A stretch of DNA of 64,000 bases from Actinomycetota bacterium (GTDB taxonomy: Bacteria > Actinomycetota > CADDZG01 > JAHWKV01). The DNA lies in the NCBI GenBank assembly GCA_030447305.1, contig JAUJPC010000001.1, positions 327,998 through 391,997 on the forward strand. The letters run 5' to 3'. A program made the position numbers and the translations under genes. Positions within the stretch are counted from its first letter, which is position 1. Every line of letters starts with the position of its first letter. Below the pieces are notes generated by a model. It worked only from the letters and a program-made list of their open reading frames with translations, had not been told where the DNA came from and made no database searches. This document shows positions 47,051-54,976 of this stretch, piece by piece.

Positions 47051-47842
47051 CTAAGCCGAACGGAGGGAGCCCCCGAACCTATCCCGCCGCCGGCCTGCAC
47101 TCAGCAAGACGGACCCCAGCAGAATGGTGGCGACGGCGGCTGCCAGAAGCGGCAGTGCGTCGACACCCGTGCGGGCCAGAACCTTGGTCAGCGGCCTTGC
47201 GATGGGAGCGCTCTCGATCTTCTTGACCGCCGTTGCTGTGGATTCGCATTTGGCGGAGTTGTTGTTGTTGATATTGATGCTGGGACCGGTCTCAGCGATC
47301 CGGTACTCGTTGCTGGCGGCCGTTGCCGTTGCGTTGCTGGTGCAGCTCACCCGGTTGTCGGTGTTGATGACAACGTTGCCGGCACCCTTGTCAGTGCCGG
47401 TGCCTGTGCCGGGAGCAACCACCTGGATGCGGGCCCTCAGCGTCCGGGGCACCGCTGTTGTGGCCTGGGCAATTTGCAGCTGCCCGTTCGAGGCGGACGC
47501 CACGAAAACCAGTGATACCGTGACGGTGGTGTTCGGAGAGAACCCTCCGCCGCTGACTGTGATGCTCTGACCGGCCACGACTACGGTGGAGGACACGGCC
47601 AGGCCGCCGGTGCTCGTCGGAGGATAGGGGCTCGTCAGCGGGCCAACACCGGTTGCGACCAGGTCGTAGATGCCCGGTGGGGTGTTTGCAGGGATGGTAA
47701 CGGTGCCTGAGAACGTACCGCTAGCGTCGGTGGTGAAACTGCCGAGCACGGTTTGTGCGATGGCCGGCGCTGCCAGGAACAGCGCCCCGCATACCATCAA
47801 CGCCGTCACGACCAAACGGCTTCGCTTAAGAGTGGGCTGCAT
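47051..47842 (-). CDS. Secreted surface protein with LARTG-type cell-wall sorting signal
   Basis: About 263 residues. The signal peptide (LVVTALMVCGALFLAAPAIA) is followed by an Ig-like beta domain (GTFSGTVTIPANTPPGIYDL; VAGQSITVSGGGFSPNTTVTV, a pattern common in actinobacterial surface proteins). An Asn-rich stretch (ININNNN) comes next. The C-terminus reads LARTG, a hydrophobic helix, then AGRRRDR. That is the layout of a sortase substrate, with an LAxTG motif like those used by class E sortases. No sortase gene is in the window. AAGGGGAG precedes ATG 47842. It lies 76 bp upstream of the Wzc-like gene on the same strand. Confidence 0.8.
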   Translation of the reverse strand: MQPTLKRSRLVVTALMVCGALFLAAPAIAQTVLGSFTTDASGTFSGTVTIPANTPPGIYDLVATGVGPLTSPYPPTSTGGLAVSSTVVVAGQSITVSGGGFSPNTTVTVSLVFVASASNGQLQIAQATTAVPRTLRARIQVVAPGTGTGTDKGAGNVVINTDNRVSCTSNATATAASNEYRIAETGPSININNNNSAKCESTATAVKKIESAPIARPLTKVLARTGVDALPLLAAAVATILLGSVLLSAGRRRDRFGGSLRSA

Positions 47843-48338
47843 CTGCTCCCCTTCCGTCATCAAGTCGAGAGATGTCTTGAATATATGAATTGCCCGGACC
47901 CTTTGAGCCCAGGCTGAGTGACCTAAGCCACCGATACGAAGCATACTCCTGCCGAGGTGCCCTCGTACAAGCATCTTTAGTGGTCCAAGCGTCAACTTTT
48001 AACAATTTTGTGACCGCGCAGGGTACTTGGACGGCTACTTCTGGTTAACCCATTCATGTGAATACCCTGACTCGAGCCTATGACTCGAGGACGAGTGAGC
48101 AGCGATCGCCGGGCTTCCTCCATCTCTTTGTTAGGGCAAATATCGGTCTGGGGCTTTTGAAATCGGTGCGATCGGGTACGCCCAATATGGTAGAAAGGCC
48201 ACATCCAGGCGGATGCCCTCACACTTGTGACCGGCGACCGTTGCATTATTTATTGAATAAGTGTTGGCAAGGTGAAAGGATCGCCCTACGTCTTGCGACA
48301 ATAAATTCGAAAGCTGTGTTCCTTTGGGAGGTAGATGA
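47843..48338. other. Divergent intergenic region, 496 bp, no gene seen
   Basis: The region separates two divergent secreted-protein genes and is more A/T-rich than its flanks. It includes repeated CTCGAG (two copies 13 bp apart, about 48070-48090) and a short A/T stem near 48245-48260. Promoters for both genes must lie here, but no convincing -35/-10 pair or known riboswitch consensus was found. Confidence 0.6.
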
Positions 48339-49130: not shown

Positions 49131-49204
49131 CCGGAGCCGGAACCGGGTTCTAATCGGTTCGGGCCGCGGCGGCTTCTGTGTCGCCTACAACACTAAGTGG
49201 GGTG

Positions 49205-49744
49205 ATGAGTCTGTTCTTCGGCAAGCTGGTTCTTCGCATATTGGCAGGTCTGGCTGTAGTCTTTTTGGCCGCAGCATGCCGGCAGGAGGCACCACCTGAC
49301 GAGGAGGAGCTGTTGGTTCAGACTCCCAGCGCGTCGGCTCCGGCTGTCGACGTCGCAAAGGTCGTCGACCATCTAAAGGCAAACGAGCTTCCCATTGGCC
49401 GGACCGATGTCTACAACGCCGAGAACGACCCATCCAAGAGACTCGGCCGTCCCGGTGAATACATCGGCAAGGCAATCTTCCACGACACCAGAATGCCTTT
49501 GACGCTCTTGGAGGGACAGGATGTGATCGGCTTTCAAAATTCCGGCGGAGTGGTTGAGACCTTTACCTCCCCGGAAGACGTGGAAAGCCGCAAGCAGACC
49601 TTGGAAGCAGCCCGGCGCCAATTTCCCGGAGCTCCTCCCGAATATCAGTACTCCAACGGAGTGATCCTTCTGCGCCTCGGCCACGTCTTCACGCCGGACC
49701 AGGCGAAGCAGTACGAGGCGGCACTCGCCTCATTTCAGGCGTAG
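49205..49744 (+). CDS. Predicted lipoprotein of unknown function
   Basis: 179 residues. The signal peptide ends in the lipobox VFLAAAC; the mature part is acidic and alpha/beta (VDVAKVVDHLKANELPIGRT; FHDTRMPLTLLEGQDVIGFQ). A segment AARRQFPGAPPEYQYSNGVI LLRLG-like region and a Tyr-rich end suggest a small globular domain. I recognise no family. The ATG at 49205 has a GGGG-type ribosome site. The next gene, a one-helix membrane protein, starts 18 bp later and is probably co-transcribed. Confidence 0.75.
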   Translation: MSLFFGKLVLRILAGLAVVFLAAACRQEAPPDEEELLVQTPSASAPAVDVAKVVDHLKANELPIGRTDVYNAENDPSKRLGRPGEYIGKAIFHDTRMPLTLLEGQDVIGFQNSGGVVETFTSPEDVESRKQTLEAARRQFPGAPPEYQYSNGVILLRLGHVFTPDQAKQYEAALASFQA

Positions 49745-50032: not shown

Positions 50033-50764
50033 TTAGTCTTCGCTGTTGTCTTGAGCGTTGCGGCACCGGATATCGTCCATGTCGATATCGCGGTCTCCGT
50101 CGTTGTCAATTCGGTCGCTACATTGGGGGGCCGGCGGTGGCGGTGGTGGAGGCGGCCCTGGTGGAGGCGGCGGTGGTGGAGGTGGTGGAGGCGGCCCTGG
50201 TGGAGGCGGTGGCGGAGGAGCAGCCGCCGGCGCAGCGGGTTTCGCAGATGGTTTGGGGGAAGTCACAGCCTTCGGTTTGGGGGACGTCGCAGTCTTCGAT
50301 TTGGCGGAAGTTGCAGCCTTGGGGTTGGGCGATTCGGAGTTGTCCCTCGTCGAAGCGCAGCCGGGATCGCGCATGTCAATCTTGCCGTCCCGATCATCGT
50401 CCCTGCCGTTCTTGCATTGAGCTTTAGCAGGCGACCTGGTGGAGGCGGGCGTTGGATCGGGCGACATCTCAACGACTTCAGGAGTAGGTACCGGCTCAGG
50501 CTCCGGTTCACCGAACGGAAAAACCAACGGAACTTGGAGACTTGTGTCGATCGGCCGCTCGATGGCTGCCGGCTCAGGGTCCGGTTGAGAGTCCTGCTGG
50601 AGCGCCACAAAGGCCACAAAGGGCAGCATTCCCAAACCTATTAACAGCCCCACCTTGAGAAGCGGTGGGAGGTTCATGGTGGAAAAGCTGTCCTTCAACC
50701 GCAGCAACCTACGCAAGATTGGTTCCATGGCCTGGCTCATAGGCCTCGTCGCCGGAACTGCCAC
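50033..50764 (-). CDS. Membrane-anchored Pro-rich protein with two Cys/Asp loops (paralogue 1)
   Basis: 243 residues. A short basic cytoplasmic N-terminus is followed by one transmembrane helix (35-55, containing MLPFVAF) and the juxtamembrane motif VPLVFPF with PEVVEM. The first loop spans C117-C136 (CKNGRDDDRDGKID, then PGC) with a DNSES tail. A 75-residue spacer is almost pure proline (encoded by GGT/GGC repeats at 50130-50225). A second loop closes the protein (CSDRIDNDGDRDIDMDD, then C). The Asp spacing resembles calcium-binding repeats of thrombospondin type 3 or dockerin. The Pro spacer could span the cell wall. It shares these features with the next two genes upstream; function unknown. 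Confidence 0.75.
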   Translation of the reverse strand: MAVPATRPMSQAMEPILRRLLRLKDSFSTMNLPPLLKVGLLIGLGMLPFVAFVALQQDSQPDPEPAAIERPIDTSLQVPLVFPFGEPEPEPVPTPEVVEMSPDPTPASTRSPAKAQCKNGRDDDRDGKIDMRDPGCASTRDNSESPNPKAATSAKSKTATSPKPKAVTSPKPSAKPAAPAAAPPPPPPPGPPPPPPPPPPPPGPPPPPPPPAPQCSDRIDNDGDRDIDMDDIRCRNAQDNSED

Positions 50765-50896
50765 CGGGCGGCGGGACAGAGTCGATTGGGAGCATTGATT
50801 TCAGGAGAAGACCTTTCGGATTGTGAGCACGAGGCTGCCGGTCAGTATACCGAGGCTCATCGCGCGTCGGGGTCTTCGCGTTGTCTCAGGTCGGTC

Positions 50897-51676
50897 CTAA
50901 TCGCATAAAAAGCCGCTAGCTATGTCCTCGTCTGTGCACGGCGCCGGATCGGTTTGCGTGTCGCCGTTGTCTGACCGATCTGGGTTGTCTGGCGGAGTAC
51001 GGTTGTCTGGCTGATTACTATTGTCTGGCGGATTACGGTTTTCTGGCGGATTACGGTTGCCGGAATCGTCACCGTCGCTTGACTCACCAGCTTCGCCTGA
51101 GTCGTCATCGCCGTCGGCTGACTGAGCCGGAGCAGCGCGACGCGGCGCGGGGGCTGGCGGGGCTGGAGCAGGTTGAGCTGCAGCCGGCGAGGTCTGGGCC
51201 CTCACCCGTGCCGAGGACTCCGAGTTATCGGTGCGTGAGCTGCACCCTGAGTCGGCCCCGAAGTCAGTGCGGCGGTCGCCGTCGTTGTCGGTGCCGTCCG
51301 AACACTGCGGAACGCGAGACTCCTCCATCTGAACAACTTCCGGCGCAGGGGGTGACTCATCCGGCGGGGTCATGTCGAACGGGAAGGCCAGCGGGACTGC
51401 CAGTGTCGAGATCGGGGATGGAGAAGCGCTCTGCGCCGCCTTCTCCGGCTCGCCGTCCAACCCGCCGCCCCGAGGCAGCATCAGGATGAAGGCGACAAAG
51501 GGGAGCAGTGCCACCACCAGGTAGGTGAACGTTCTTACAGGCGACCGGGGTTCGTGAGCCGGTACGACCCGGGTTGCGGCCTCGTCGCCTGATTTCTGGG
51601 CGGCATCCTCCTGTTCGGCCGGGCGACCTGAACCTGTCTGGTCTGAGCCAAGAGGGTCCGGCTCAGGGTCGGACAC
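50897..51676 (-). CDS. Membrane-anchored Pro/Asn-rich protein with Cys/Asp loop (paralogue 2)
   Basis: 259 residues. An acidic 47-residue cytoplasmic part leads to a transmembrane helix (50-67, with LLPFVAF) and VPLAFPF with PEVVQM, matching paralogue 1. One Cys/Asp loop spans C125-C145 (CSDGTDNDGDRRTD, then SGC, SSRTDNSES). The C-terminal half is Ala/Pro- then Asn/Pro-rich (repeated PPDN units) and ends CTDEDIASGFLCD, giving another Cys pair. The start is GTG 51676 with a weak ribosome site. It lies 132 bp upstream of paralogue 1. Confidence 0.75.
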   Translation of the reverse strand: MSDPEPDPLGSDQTGSGRPAEQEDAAQKSGDEAATRVVPAHEPRSPVRTFTYLVVALLPFVAFILMLPRGGGLDGEPEKAAQSASPSPISTLAVPLAFPFDMTPPDESPPAPEVVQMEESRVPQCSDGTDNDGDRRTDFGADSGCSSRTDNSESSARVRAQTSPAAAQPAPAPPAPAPRRAAPAQSADGDDDSGEAGESSDGDDSGNRNPPENRNPPDNSNQPDNRTPPDNPDRSDNGDTQTDPAPCTDEDIASGFLCD

Positions 51677-51840
51677 TGCCTTGGGAGCGGAAGCGTATGA
51701 AGTGTCGGGGTTCTCCTCAGGCTTGTGCTCGGCCGGGGAGCGGTCGGTGAGATCCAGAACAGACCTTTCAAGCTAGTCGCTGTTTGTCTGGAGACTAGGG
51801 GATTATACCGGCCCAACAAGTACTCCCGGCGCTATGCCGG

Positions 51841-52524
51841 TTATGCAAGCGGAGCCGCCGGGGAAGAAGGCGCTGGACCGGAAGCTGTCGGGGAAGGCGC
51901 CGGTGTTGTCGGGGAAGGCGCCGAAGTTGTCGGGGAAGGCGCCGAAGTTGTCGGGGAAGGCGCCGGCGGAGGCGGAAGATTCTCTTGCTGTACCGGTTCC
52001 GGTGGGGCCGGCTGCGCGGGTGGGGGTGCTGGGAGCGGAGGCGCAACCGGATTTGGCGACTCGGTGTTGTCGCTACGTGAGGTGCAGCCCCGGTCCGCCG
52101 GAAAGTCCCTGCCCCCATCGCGATCGTCATCCCGCCCGTTGGAGCAGCGAGGCTTGTTCGGCGACGGGCTTGGAGACGGCGAAGGGGATTCCGATGGGCT
52201 TGAAGTCGGGATCGGAGAGGGATCCGGGCCCGGCGGGGGAGTAGGCGATGTGGTCGGAAACGCAAGAGGCGCCGGCGGACCCACGTTGCGGCTGATTATG
52301 TTGGCGCCGTCCTCAATCCCTGTCGGCAGCGGCTGGAAGAGAAAGAAGAGAACAAAGGGGGCGGCGCCGAGCAGGGCCAGGAGAGCAAGCTTCAGGAAAG
52401 ACGACGCTCTCAAACTGTTGAACCGGTAGCGTAGCCGGGCAGCTCTCAGCGCCTGCTCCCGGCGCATCTGATAGATGGCAGTTTCTAGCCGGTACCTGAA
52501 GCGTGCCATGCGGTAAGAGGACAT
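51841..52524 (-). CDS. Membrane-anchored Pro/Ser-rich protein with Cys/Asp loop (paralogue 3)
   Basis: About 227 residues from ATG 52524. A cytoplasmic N-terminus rich in Arg and Tyr (MARFRYRLETAIYQMRRE) leads to a transmembrane helix (43-63, GAAPFVLFFLF) and PLAFP. A Ser/Pro spacer precedes a Cys/Asp loop at C127-C147 (CSNGRDDDRDGGRD, then RGC, TSRSDNTES). The C-terminal tail has four APSPTTS repeats. The ORF is open upstream to 52659, overlapping the CopCD gene end, but nothing there looks coding; ATG 52509 is another possible start. It is the first of the three-gene paralogue set on this strand. Confidence 0.73.
   Translation of the reverse strand: MSSYRMARFRYRLETAIYQMRREQALRAARLRYRFNSLRASSFLKLALLALLGAAPFVLFFLFQPLPTGIEDGANIISRNVGPPAPLAFPTTSPTPPPGPDPSPIPTSSPSESPSPSPSPSPNKPRCSNGRDDDRDGGRDFPADRGCTSRSDNTESPNPVAPPLPAPPPAQPAPPEPVQQENLPPPPAPSPTTSAPSPTTSAPSPTTPAPSPTASGPAPSSPAAPLA
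51885..51968. repeat. Four 21-bp tandem repeats in paralogue 3
   Basis: Units of TTGTCGGGGAAGGCGCCGAAG with few differences encode repeated APSPTTS on the minus strand. A likely site of length variation. Confidence 0.88.
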
Positions 52525-52588: not shown

Positions 52589-54976
52589 TCAGAAGGACGC
52601 GGCGGCCTCATCTCTGGCGTCGAGGCAAGCCTTCTTGTAGGTAGCCTCGACCATGCCACACAGCTCTGTGGCCTTGGTGATGTTGTGGTCGTTGAACACG
52701 GCGTTGAGCGACGCTCCTACGATGCAGTGCTCCCTTAGGGCTGCCCCTCCAAGGGCGCATCCGGCGACCACTTTTTCCGAATCCAGAAGTGAGTTTCCGC
52801 TGATGTCACGGCCCATGCTCTGGTAGCAGTCGTCGGCGAAGTCCGCCTCGACCGTGTCGCAGATCCTGAATCCCTTGCTCAGGTCCTGATCCGACTGCCA
52901 AAGGATGTAGGAGGTCTGCATGCCGAAGCATTCGTCCTTGTAGCCGGTTGCCACGGCGTTGCATGGGTAGACCAGGTCGCCCTCTTTGAAGGTGGCCCCG
53001 GTGTGTCCCTCCTGAGCCGACACGACATTCTGCATGAAGGCCCCCGACACGCAGGAGCTCAGCTCCCACGGATCGGCCAGTTTCTCGCAGTAGGGCACGG
53101 AGTCGAAAAGGTTGGCGTCGAAGCGGAGCATGATGCCGTGTCCGACGCCGTGGACGCAGTTGTAGTGGACGAACGAGTACTTATCCCTGGCCGGGTCCTG
53201 GCAAAAGCTCGGAACCATCTCCAGGAGTTCCTTGTCGTCGTACTGAGACATCCGTTGCTCCACCACGCCGTGGTAGTAGCCGGACCAGCAGGCTGAGGCT
53301 TCGAACGACAGCGCCTCTCCCAGGGTCTTGTAGTAATTGGCGGCTTCCCGTCCGAGATCGTGCGTGATCTGATGACACTGCGAGGCGACGTATCGATCGG
53401 AAGCAGACAGCTCGAGGATCTTGGCGACGGCAATCCCGGCGTCGCCGATGCGCATGAGAGCGGAGAAGTAGCTCTTGTAGCAGTTGGGCTGGCCGACGCT
53501 GAGGCCGGCGCACTCCTGCACATCGGCCACCGGCTGGGCGGAAAGCGCGTCGTCCGAGGACGCCCCGGCACCGGCGCGGGGCGAGCCGTCAGTGGGGTTG
53601 AGCAGTGCCAGCGAGGACGCCAGGACGAGCACGGTCGCCAGCGCACCGAGTTCCAGTCGAAGGGTTTTGGCGAACCCTGGATCGCCGAGGGTGGCGGGCT
53701 TGGACCGGACCTTTTGGTCGTGGGCCCACGCCAGGGGAAGGATCACCACCAGTAGCAGCGCCAGCTTTATGGACAGTGCCAGCCCGTAGCGGTTTCCGAA
53801 CAGGTTGGTCCCGATGTTCGCCCACAGGGCTTCGGCGCCGGTGATCACGAGAACCAACAAGCTCCACCCGGCGGCGCGAGCGAAGCGCGGGAAGAAGGCC
53901 GCCAGCAAAGCCGACCGGTCGTCTGCCGAGACTTCGCTGCGCTTCGACGCCGCGAGCCACAAAGCGACCAGGCAAAGCGGCCCGATCCAAAGTGCAGCCG
54001 CCAGGATGTGGGCCGAGCTCACGAAGACGGCAACTTCGGGGGCACGGTTCACAGCTAGATGGCCGCCGACCGACCCCGCTAAAACAGCGAGCCCTATCGA
54101 TGTGGCGATCTTGCGCCAGCGGGCATCGTTGCGCCCGAGGTACGGGGTGACGGAGACCGGTTCGGCAAACAGCGCCGCCGCTGCGAGAGACAGAAGGAGC
54201 AGCACCTCGAACATCGTGCTGCCGGTGCCAAGCGCCCTTCCCACCCGCGACATCGACGAGCCGCCCTGAAAGGAGTTGGCCAGGATGGTGACGGTAGCGG
54301 CGAGACGCACCCCGCCTCCCACAAAAGCGATCCGCAGACCTCTTGCGAGCCACAGCCGGCATAGCGTCCACAGGGCCCGTCCGGCGGGCGTCCATGTGGA
54401 CGCTGCCCCCGCCATCCAGACCAAGATGAACAGAGCGCCTATCGCCAGGCTCAGTCCCAGGTACCAAAGAAAGCGCCCCGTCGCTCCGGCGAGGTCCACG
54501 GTCCGGTCCTCTGCCGTAACGGCCTCAAAGCGGGCAGCGCGCACCTGTTCCTGCGAAACCGCGCCCACGCCGAAGACAACCTCCCCGACCGCCCGGTGTC
54601 CGTCCCCGCCGATCGACTGCCAGCTGATTCCGTAGGTGCCCTCGGGAAGATCCGGCAGGACAAACTCGACCTTGGTTGTAGGTTCCTCCGACTCGGTCGA
54701 GAGGGTGGCCCCCTCATAGGGTTTGCCGGTCACATCGAGGATTCGTACGGTGACGGTTTGCGGGTCGACCGGATCCGTGAACTCCAGGTGAAGGGTCTGC
54801 GGAGGGGAGTCCAGGCGGCTGAGGTTGGAAGGATTGCTGTCGCTCAACGACGTGTGCGCAGAAGCTGGGATCGCGGTGCCGACGAGGAATGCGGCCACGA
54901 TGGCCACGGTCGTTACCGCTCTACTCAAAGGCCGGTTGGCACTGAACACCACGACACCACCGCTGGGTAGGTTCAC
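52589..54976 (-). CDS. CopC-CopD fusion with C-terminal 16-Cys repeat domain
   Basis: 795 residues in three parts. (1) Signal peptide, then a CopC domain whose mature N-terminus would be AHTSLSDSNPSNLSRL; the N-terminal His is a Cu(II) ligand in CopC, and LHLEFTDPVDP and VEFVLPDLPEGTYGISWQ are typical. (2) About eight transmembrane helices of CopD type (165-465). (3) A novel-looking 310-residue extracytoplasmic domain with 16 Cys. Most lie in pairs 10-13 residues apart (e.g. CNAVATGYKDEC, CDTVEADFADDC, CGMVEATYKKAC), with His motifs QITHDLGR, GYYHGVVE and CVHGVGHG. Known CopCD/YcnJ proteins do not carry this tail as far as I know. Role: copper uptake or handling; the tail may bind metal or act as a disulfide-stabilised helical repeat. 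The start is GTG 54976. Confidence 0.85.
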   Translation of the reverse strand: MNLPSGGVVVFSANRPLSRAVTTVAIVAAFLVGTAIPASAHTSLSDSNPSNLSRLDSPPQTLHLEFTDPVDPQTVTVRILDVTGKPYEGATLSTESEEPTTKVEFVLPDLPEGTYGISWQSIGGDGHRAVGEVVFGVGAVSQEQVRAARFEAVTAEDRTVDLAGATGRFLWYLGLSLAIGALFILVWMAGAASTWTPAGRALWTLCRLWLARGLRIAFVGGGVRLAATVTILANSFQGGSSMSRVGRALGTGSTMFEVLLLLSLAAAALFAEPVSVTPYLGRNDARWRKIATSIGLAVLAGSVGGHLAVNRAPEVAVFVSSAHILAAALWIGPLCLVALWLAASKRSEVSADDRSALLAAFFPRFARAAGWSLLVLVITGAEALWANIGTNLFGNRYGLALSIKLALLLVVILPLAWAHDQKVRSKPATLGDPGFAKTLRLELGALATVLVLASSLALLNPTDGSPRAGAGASSDDALSAQPVADVQECAGLSVGQPNCYKSYFSALMRIGDAGIAVAKILELSASDRYVASQCHQITHDLGREAANYYKTLGEALSFEASACWSGYYHGVVEQRMSQYDDKELLEMVPSFCQDPARDKYSFVHYNCVHGVGHGIMLRFDANLFDSVPYCEKLADPWELSSCVSGAFMQNVVSAQEGHTGATFKEGDLVYPCNAVATGYKDECFGMQTSYILWQSDQDLSKGFRICDTVEADFADDCYQSMGRDISGNSLLDSEKVVAGCALGGAALREHCIVGASLNAVFNDHNITKATELCGMVEATYKKACLDARDEAAASF

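Follow-up and report, generated by a model that had tools for sequence, protein, structure and literature searches.

A tandem family of single-pass membrane tethers with a probably calcium-binding loop beside a CopC-CopD fusion in Actinomycetota

Overview

Downstream of a gene for a CopC-CopD fusion (CopCD) we found three minus-strand genes, P3, P2 and P1 in the order of transcription (positions 50033-52524 of the window, i.e. the whole stretch of 64,000 nucleotides analysed), whose products we regard as single-pass tethers of a family specific to this lineage; they bear an already known repeat that probably binds calcium. Homology lends good support to this predicted chemistry; our statements on the cellular role of the tethers and on any link to copper are guesses.

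Locus and gene architecture

Each of the three proteins has one hydrophobic helix with a PF(V/A)xF signature, a PLxFP(F)-like motif, a proline-rich stalk and an aspartate-rich loop bounded by cysteines, which is present twice in P1 and once each in P2 and P3. A preliminary description of this DNA had proposed three tandem paralogues with a common helix motif and loops. The genes lie where it had placed them, and helices, motifs and loop were all recovered; the corrections concern the second loop of P1, the starts of P2 and P3 and a different small cysteine pair at the end of P2.

All features given here lie on the minus strand. P1 (50033-50740, with orthologues in L025, L027 and L030) could be extended to a GTG at 50764. 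Its membrane helix with PFVAF (50606-50662; helix 26-48 of the AlphaFold model) is followed after 26 residues by the motif PLVFPF (50513-50530), then by loop 1 (CKNGRDDDRDGKIDMRDPGC, 50357-50416) and loop 2 (CSDRIDNDGDRDIDMDDIRC, 50063-50122). P2 (50897-51757) contains the helix with PFVAF at 51476-51532, PLAFPF at 51377-51394 and a single loop at 51242-51304 (CSDGTDNDGDRRTDFGADSGC). Its C-terminus bears a short cysteine pair (CTDEDIASGFLC, 50903-50938) that differs from the loop; a cysteine pair also terminates P2 of L025 and L027 and a P2-like protein of L074. In P3 (51841-52524; two loops in L025 and L029) the helix has the variant PFVLF (52339-52395), the motif reads PLAFPT (52252-52269) and the loop is found at 52084-52146 (CSNGRDDDRDGGRDFPADRGC). 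P3 starts with ATG 52524; a longer open reading frame reaches 52659 and overlaps the CopCD gene.

The P2 start codon is probably CTG 51757, upstream of GTG 51676, because the arrangement GAAAGG, six bases, CTG and then a similar acidic start is kept in P2 of four species, and because ATG, GTG and TTG are all absent before the membrane helix of P2 in L029. Promoter and terminator scans gave matches no better than in shuffled sequences, and the RNA fold 3' of P1 was unremarkable.

The syntenic CopC-CopD fusion (52589-54976) lies upstream of P3. Its C-terminal domain, rich in Cys and about 307 residues long, is encoded by 52592-53512, and for this domain we found no sequence relative in Pfam, NCBIfam or the PDB. 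It is predicted to be all-helical and repeat-like, with marginal solenoid matches only, none of them confident. This domain is rich in both Cys and His and is also present in an Acidimicrobiales genome (L073). That genome encodes the full fusion (40% identity) and has no anchors nearby; the CopCD fusion therefore does not need the tethers.

Relatives, synteny and selection

Three more genomes of the genus encode orthologues, so that the anchor is kept beside the CopCD fusion in four species. The order CopCD-P3-P2-P1 is retained in the genus wherever contigs permit, with the convergent end abutting the same small genes. A fourth paralogue, P4, is located between a zinc-ribbon gene and CopCD, i.e. 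upstream of CopCD, in G001 and G002; it is absent from the window, where these two genes are just 98 bases apart. In every orthologue comparison dN was well below dS, which was often saturated. Judged by these ratios, the anchors of the relatives are under purifying selection.

Another genus of the same family (G005) has three anchor paralogues; two of them are located downstream of CopCD, the third on a separate contig, and only one of the three carries the loop. Hence the anchor varies less than the loop does, and its role does not depend on the loop. The preliminary description had inferred a diversified membrane-anchored family and had suggested a look at synteny with CopCD. Orthologues and the fourth paralogue support the former, and the synteny was found in the four species mentioned above and in one other genus of the family. 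Its view that anchor and loop are both kept holds within the genus and breaks down in the two loopless paralogues of G005.

Outside these five genomes, an anchor profile searched against samples of 24 genomes from the class and 396 from the phylum gave no convincing match. Weak matches elsewhere in the phylum (best E 5e-6, in G115) were taken as chance; the one in L065 was inspected by eye and looked unrelated. Within our sample the family is thus confined to one GTDB family. In G004, a genome of that GTDB family with about 90% completeness, anchors and the CopCD fusion are both missing. The window gene at 49178-49744 had no match in G004, G006 and G008, an empty answer that is uninformative there.

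The loop belongs to a known repeat

The loop corresponds to NCBIfam NF033662 (acid_disulf_rpt, acidic double-disulfide repeat-containing protein), whose curated cut-off is a whole-protein score of 41 bits. P1 scores 42.6 bits and is a member. P2 (22.5 bits, E 6.7e-5) and P3 (16.0 bits, E 0.0075) stay below the cut-off; going by the register and ligands of their loops, they are relatives without formal membership. A search of the whole genome with this model returned four confident matches, all of them loops of P1-P3, and when each ectodomain was shuffled 100,000 times a strict loop pattern never arose. In the P2 orthologue of L027 (339-1241) a tryptophan replaces the first loop cysteine, which may reflect a sequencing error or loss of the disulfide. 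Text searches of the literature by the family name found no paper naming the loop.

Profile matches to other families were weak or absent, and MopE and EF-hand were dropped as assignments. Cu-binding_MopE (PF11617) matched one of 24 loops (E 0.043, below its curated cut-off) and none of the full proteins. EF-hand matches, seen in three of 24 loops, were too weak (best E 0.027), and the flanking helices are absent from the structural model. With the E limit set at 1, none of the 24 loops matched Pfam TSP_3.

Putative calcium ligands shared with teneurins

When a profile of 24 loops was searched against the PDB, teneurins were the only matches, the best being the C-rich domain of teneurin-4 (7plp, E 7.7e-4). 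The crystal structure of this domain contains three calcium ions, with sites I and II resembling those of thrombospondin T3 repeats, and its loop is bounded by the disulfide C838-C857 (PMC9058538). In teneurin numbering, positions 843, 845, 847, 851 and 854 are Asp in all 22 loops compared, with 854 off by one in a longer variant. Counting 840 and 844 as well, each of the seven positions that supply side chains to calcium sites I and II is Asp or Asn in 22/22 loops.

Positions 840 and 844 vary together. Each of the 23 family loops has one Asp and one Asn there (12 N/D, 11 D/N), and D/D or N/N did not occur among them; the same rule is obeyed by 35 of 36 loops from other proteins. The swaps look as though they preserve the charge count around the metals; we read this as support for metal binding, although probably few independent switches lie behind the pattern. 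Site III is missing: the position of ligand D856 is mostly Gly and never Asp in 14 loops of teneurin length, and a counterpart of E835 is not apparent upstream of the loops. As the loops match the teneurin calcium loop at the residues that hold the metal, the tethers probably bind calcium. The calcium-type loop of the preliminary description is thereby strengthened, through homology to the teneurin-4 C-rich domain as well as through conserved ligand positions.

Anchor, motif and spacing

The PLxFP(F) motif is situated 24-28 residues past the helix in P1-P3. In 16 of 17 proteins the pattern located a PLxFP-type motif 23-28 residues from the helix; the 17th has DLAFPF. Loop 1 starts 57-67 residues beyond the predicted helix (mean 62.8, sd 2.9; 14 proteins from four paralogue groups), a near-constant length despite the divergence of the intervening sequence. 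At least in part, this constancy may stem from common ancestry rather than function. Loop 2, where present, starts 128-162 residues beyond the helix. The length past loop 1 is highly variable, in part because two contigs end within the gene. It had been proposed that the loop is displayed at differing distances from the membrane; this fails for loop 1, and variable distance applies only to loop 2 and the segment past loop 1.

The stalks are rich in Pro, Ser and Thr and differ freely, to the extent that the spacers can hardly be aligned. For P2, topology is weakly indicated, with 3 K/R and 3 D/E among the 20 residues preceding the helix. The AlphaFold model of P1 shows helices at good confidence and loops at moderate to weak confidence; Foldseek returned no match for this model, and a sequence search of full-length P1 against the PDB yielded chiefly low-complexity proline matches. 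P1-P3 were also considered as sortase substrates (LPxTG), an assignment we rejected, since they end in stalk or loop and have no C-terminal LPxTG, helix and basic tail.

Proposed function and alternatives

According to our proposal, P1-P3, together with P4 in relatives, form a tether family that would have arisen through duplication in tandem. Its members probably have their N-terminus in the cytoplasm and would cross the membrane with one helix, from which the proline-rich stalk would point outward. About 26 residues out, the hydrophobic PLxFP(F) motif may serve as a docking site. Some 63 residues out follows the presumably disulfide-closed loop, in which six Asp and one Asn would hold two calcium ions in the manner of thrombospondin type 3 repeats and teneurins. 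Filled with calcium, the loop would form a stiff acidic knob at a defined height, with a second knob farther out in many members. Calcium-dependent contacts of the knobs with wall polymers or partner proteins could then brace or organise the envelope near CopCD. We assign a probability of roughly 0.55 to this picture of calcium-loaded envelope tethers. Within the class, proteins of LPxTG type and RTX-like proteins also contain this loop, which fits an extracytoplasmic location. Against the calcium-tether reading speak the absence of the loop from two of three G005 paralogues, the tryptophan in L027, the missing site III and the moderate confidence of the loop model.

An alternative that we regard as possible, if rather unlikely, places the function in the anchor and the proline-rich stalk: these would act as a spacer or as a rod spanning the wall, perhaps docked via PLxFPF to the helical domain of CopCD, and the loop would be a dispensable structural cap. 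It would account for G005, where the anchor is kept in paralogues that have no loop, and for the motif position, held in 16 of 17 proteins; the all-helical, repeat-like C-terminal domain of CopCD would offer a partner. However, docking on this domain is putative, the domain has no confident fold match, and within the genus the Asp ligands of the loop are near-invariant although the spacers hardly align.

It is improbable, in our estimate, that the loops are copper buffers or chaperones feeding or guarding CopCD, as the name of the MopE-type motif suggests. The conserved adjacency to CopCD and the one weak Cu-binding_MopE match (1/24 loops, E 0.043) are in keeping with this idea, but the loops have no His and little Met, their two Cys are positioned as in the teneurin disulfide, and the conserved ligands are Asp and Asn. 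Such a ligand set is typical of hard metals. Moreover, many proteins of the class carry this loop and have no evident copper link, and the Acidimicrobiales genome combines the CopCD fusion with an absence of nearby anchors.

A further, quite speculative extension would unite tethers and CopCD in one envelope complex, in which PLxFPF docks onto the helical, extracytoplasmic domain of CopCD and the calcium knob about 63 residues out sets height or state; if true, external calcium would control copper handling or wall contact. Finally, the free divergence of the Pro/Ser/Thr-rich stalks and the restriction to one GTDB family in our sample would suit low-complexity surface proteins under weak selection, whose loop spread by chance or recombination and has no specific role, but this is very doubtful and largely refuted by purifying selection (dN well below dS throughout), and it also sits poorly with the near-constant helix-to-loop spacing, the conserved order beside CopCD and the N/D compensation at two ligand positions.

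Wider occurrence of the loop

The NF033662 repeat occurs in many secreted bacterial proteins and is known, as a bacterial catalogue entry, by a short profile. Because the match to the teneurin C-rich domain provides a solved, calcium-bound template, metal binding by the bacterial repeat becomes directly testable. For such work the tethers offer a clean natural series, in which different stalks present the loop at one set height and a second copy is either there or missing.

The repeat was also seen in other architectures. L075 (2871-4523, minus strand) and L076 (990-2618, plus strand) encode ECF sigma factors, with regions 2 and 4 found in L075. Their C-terminal parts contain a hydrophobic stretch, a stalk rich in acidic residues and, besides degenerate copies, one or two NF033662-type loops that are intact. 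Such proteins may be sigma factors that cross the membrane and expose a calcium-type tip; a literature search for transmembrane sigma factors found no paper. In L084 (2303-4935, minus strand), two adjacent secreted-type proteins consist mostly of NF033662-type loops, with six and nine copies. Proteins of L032 (7298-8584), L033 (9433-10551) and L086 (2538-4247) combine LPRTG-type sortase-signal C-termini with one or two such loops each. The window itself encodes a secreted-type protein (47051-47995, minus strand) with a sortase-like end made up of LARTG, a helix and a basic tail; it is kept beside a Wzz/BY-kinase-type gene across the genus.

Comparison with known systems

With NF033662 the tethers share the Cys-bounded, Asp-rich loop of 20-21 residues from Cys to Cys. 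The 32-position model spans the loop alone, whereas anchor, PLxFPF, stalk and CopCD neighbourhood lie outside it. Cu-binding_MopE (PF11617) and EF-hands have a comparable DxDxDG-type core, reflected in weak matches of a few loops. The likeness to the teneurin-4 C-rich domain extends to the loop register, both cysteines of C838-C857 and the positions whose side chains form sites I and II. The teneurin domain differs by its calcium site III (E835, D856) and by its three disulfides, whereas the loops described here have two Cys and no site III, and its host is an animal adhesion receptor. Through the T3-like description of teneurin sites I and II, the likeness reaches thrombospondin type 3 repeats (TSP_3); these, however, form long arrays, whereas the tether loops are single or paired.
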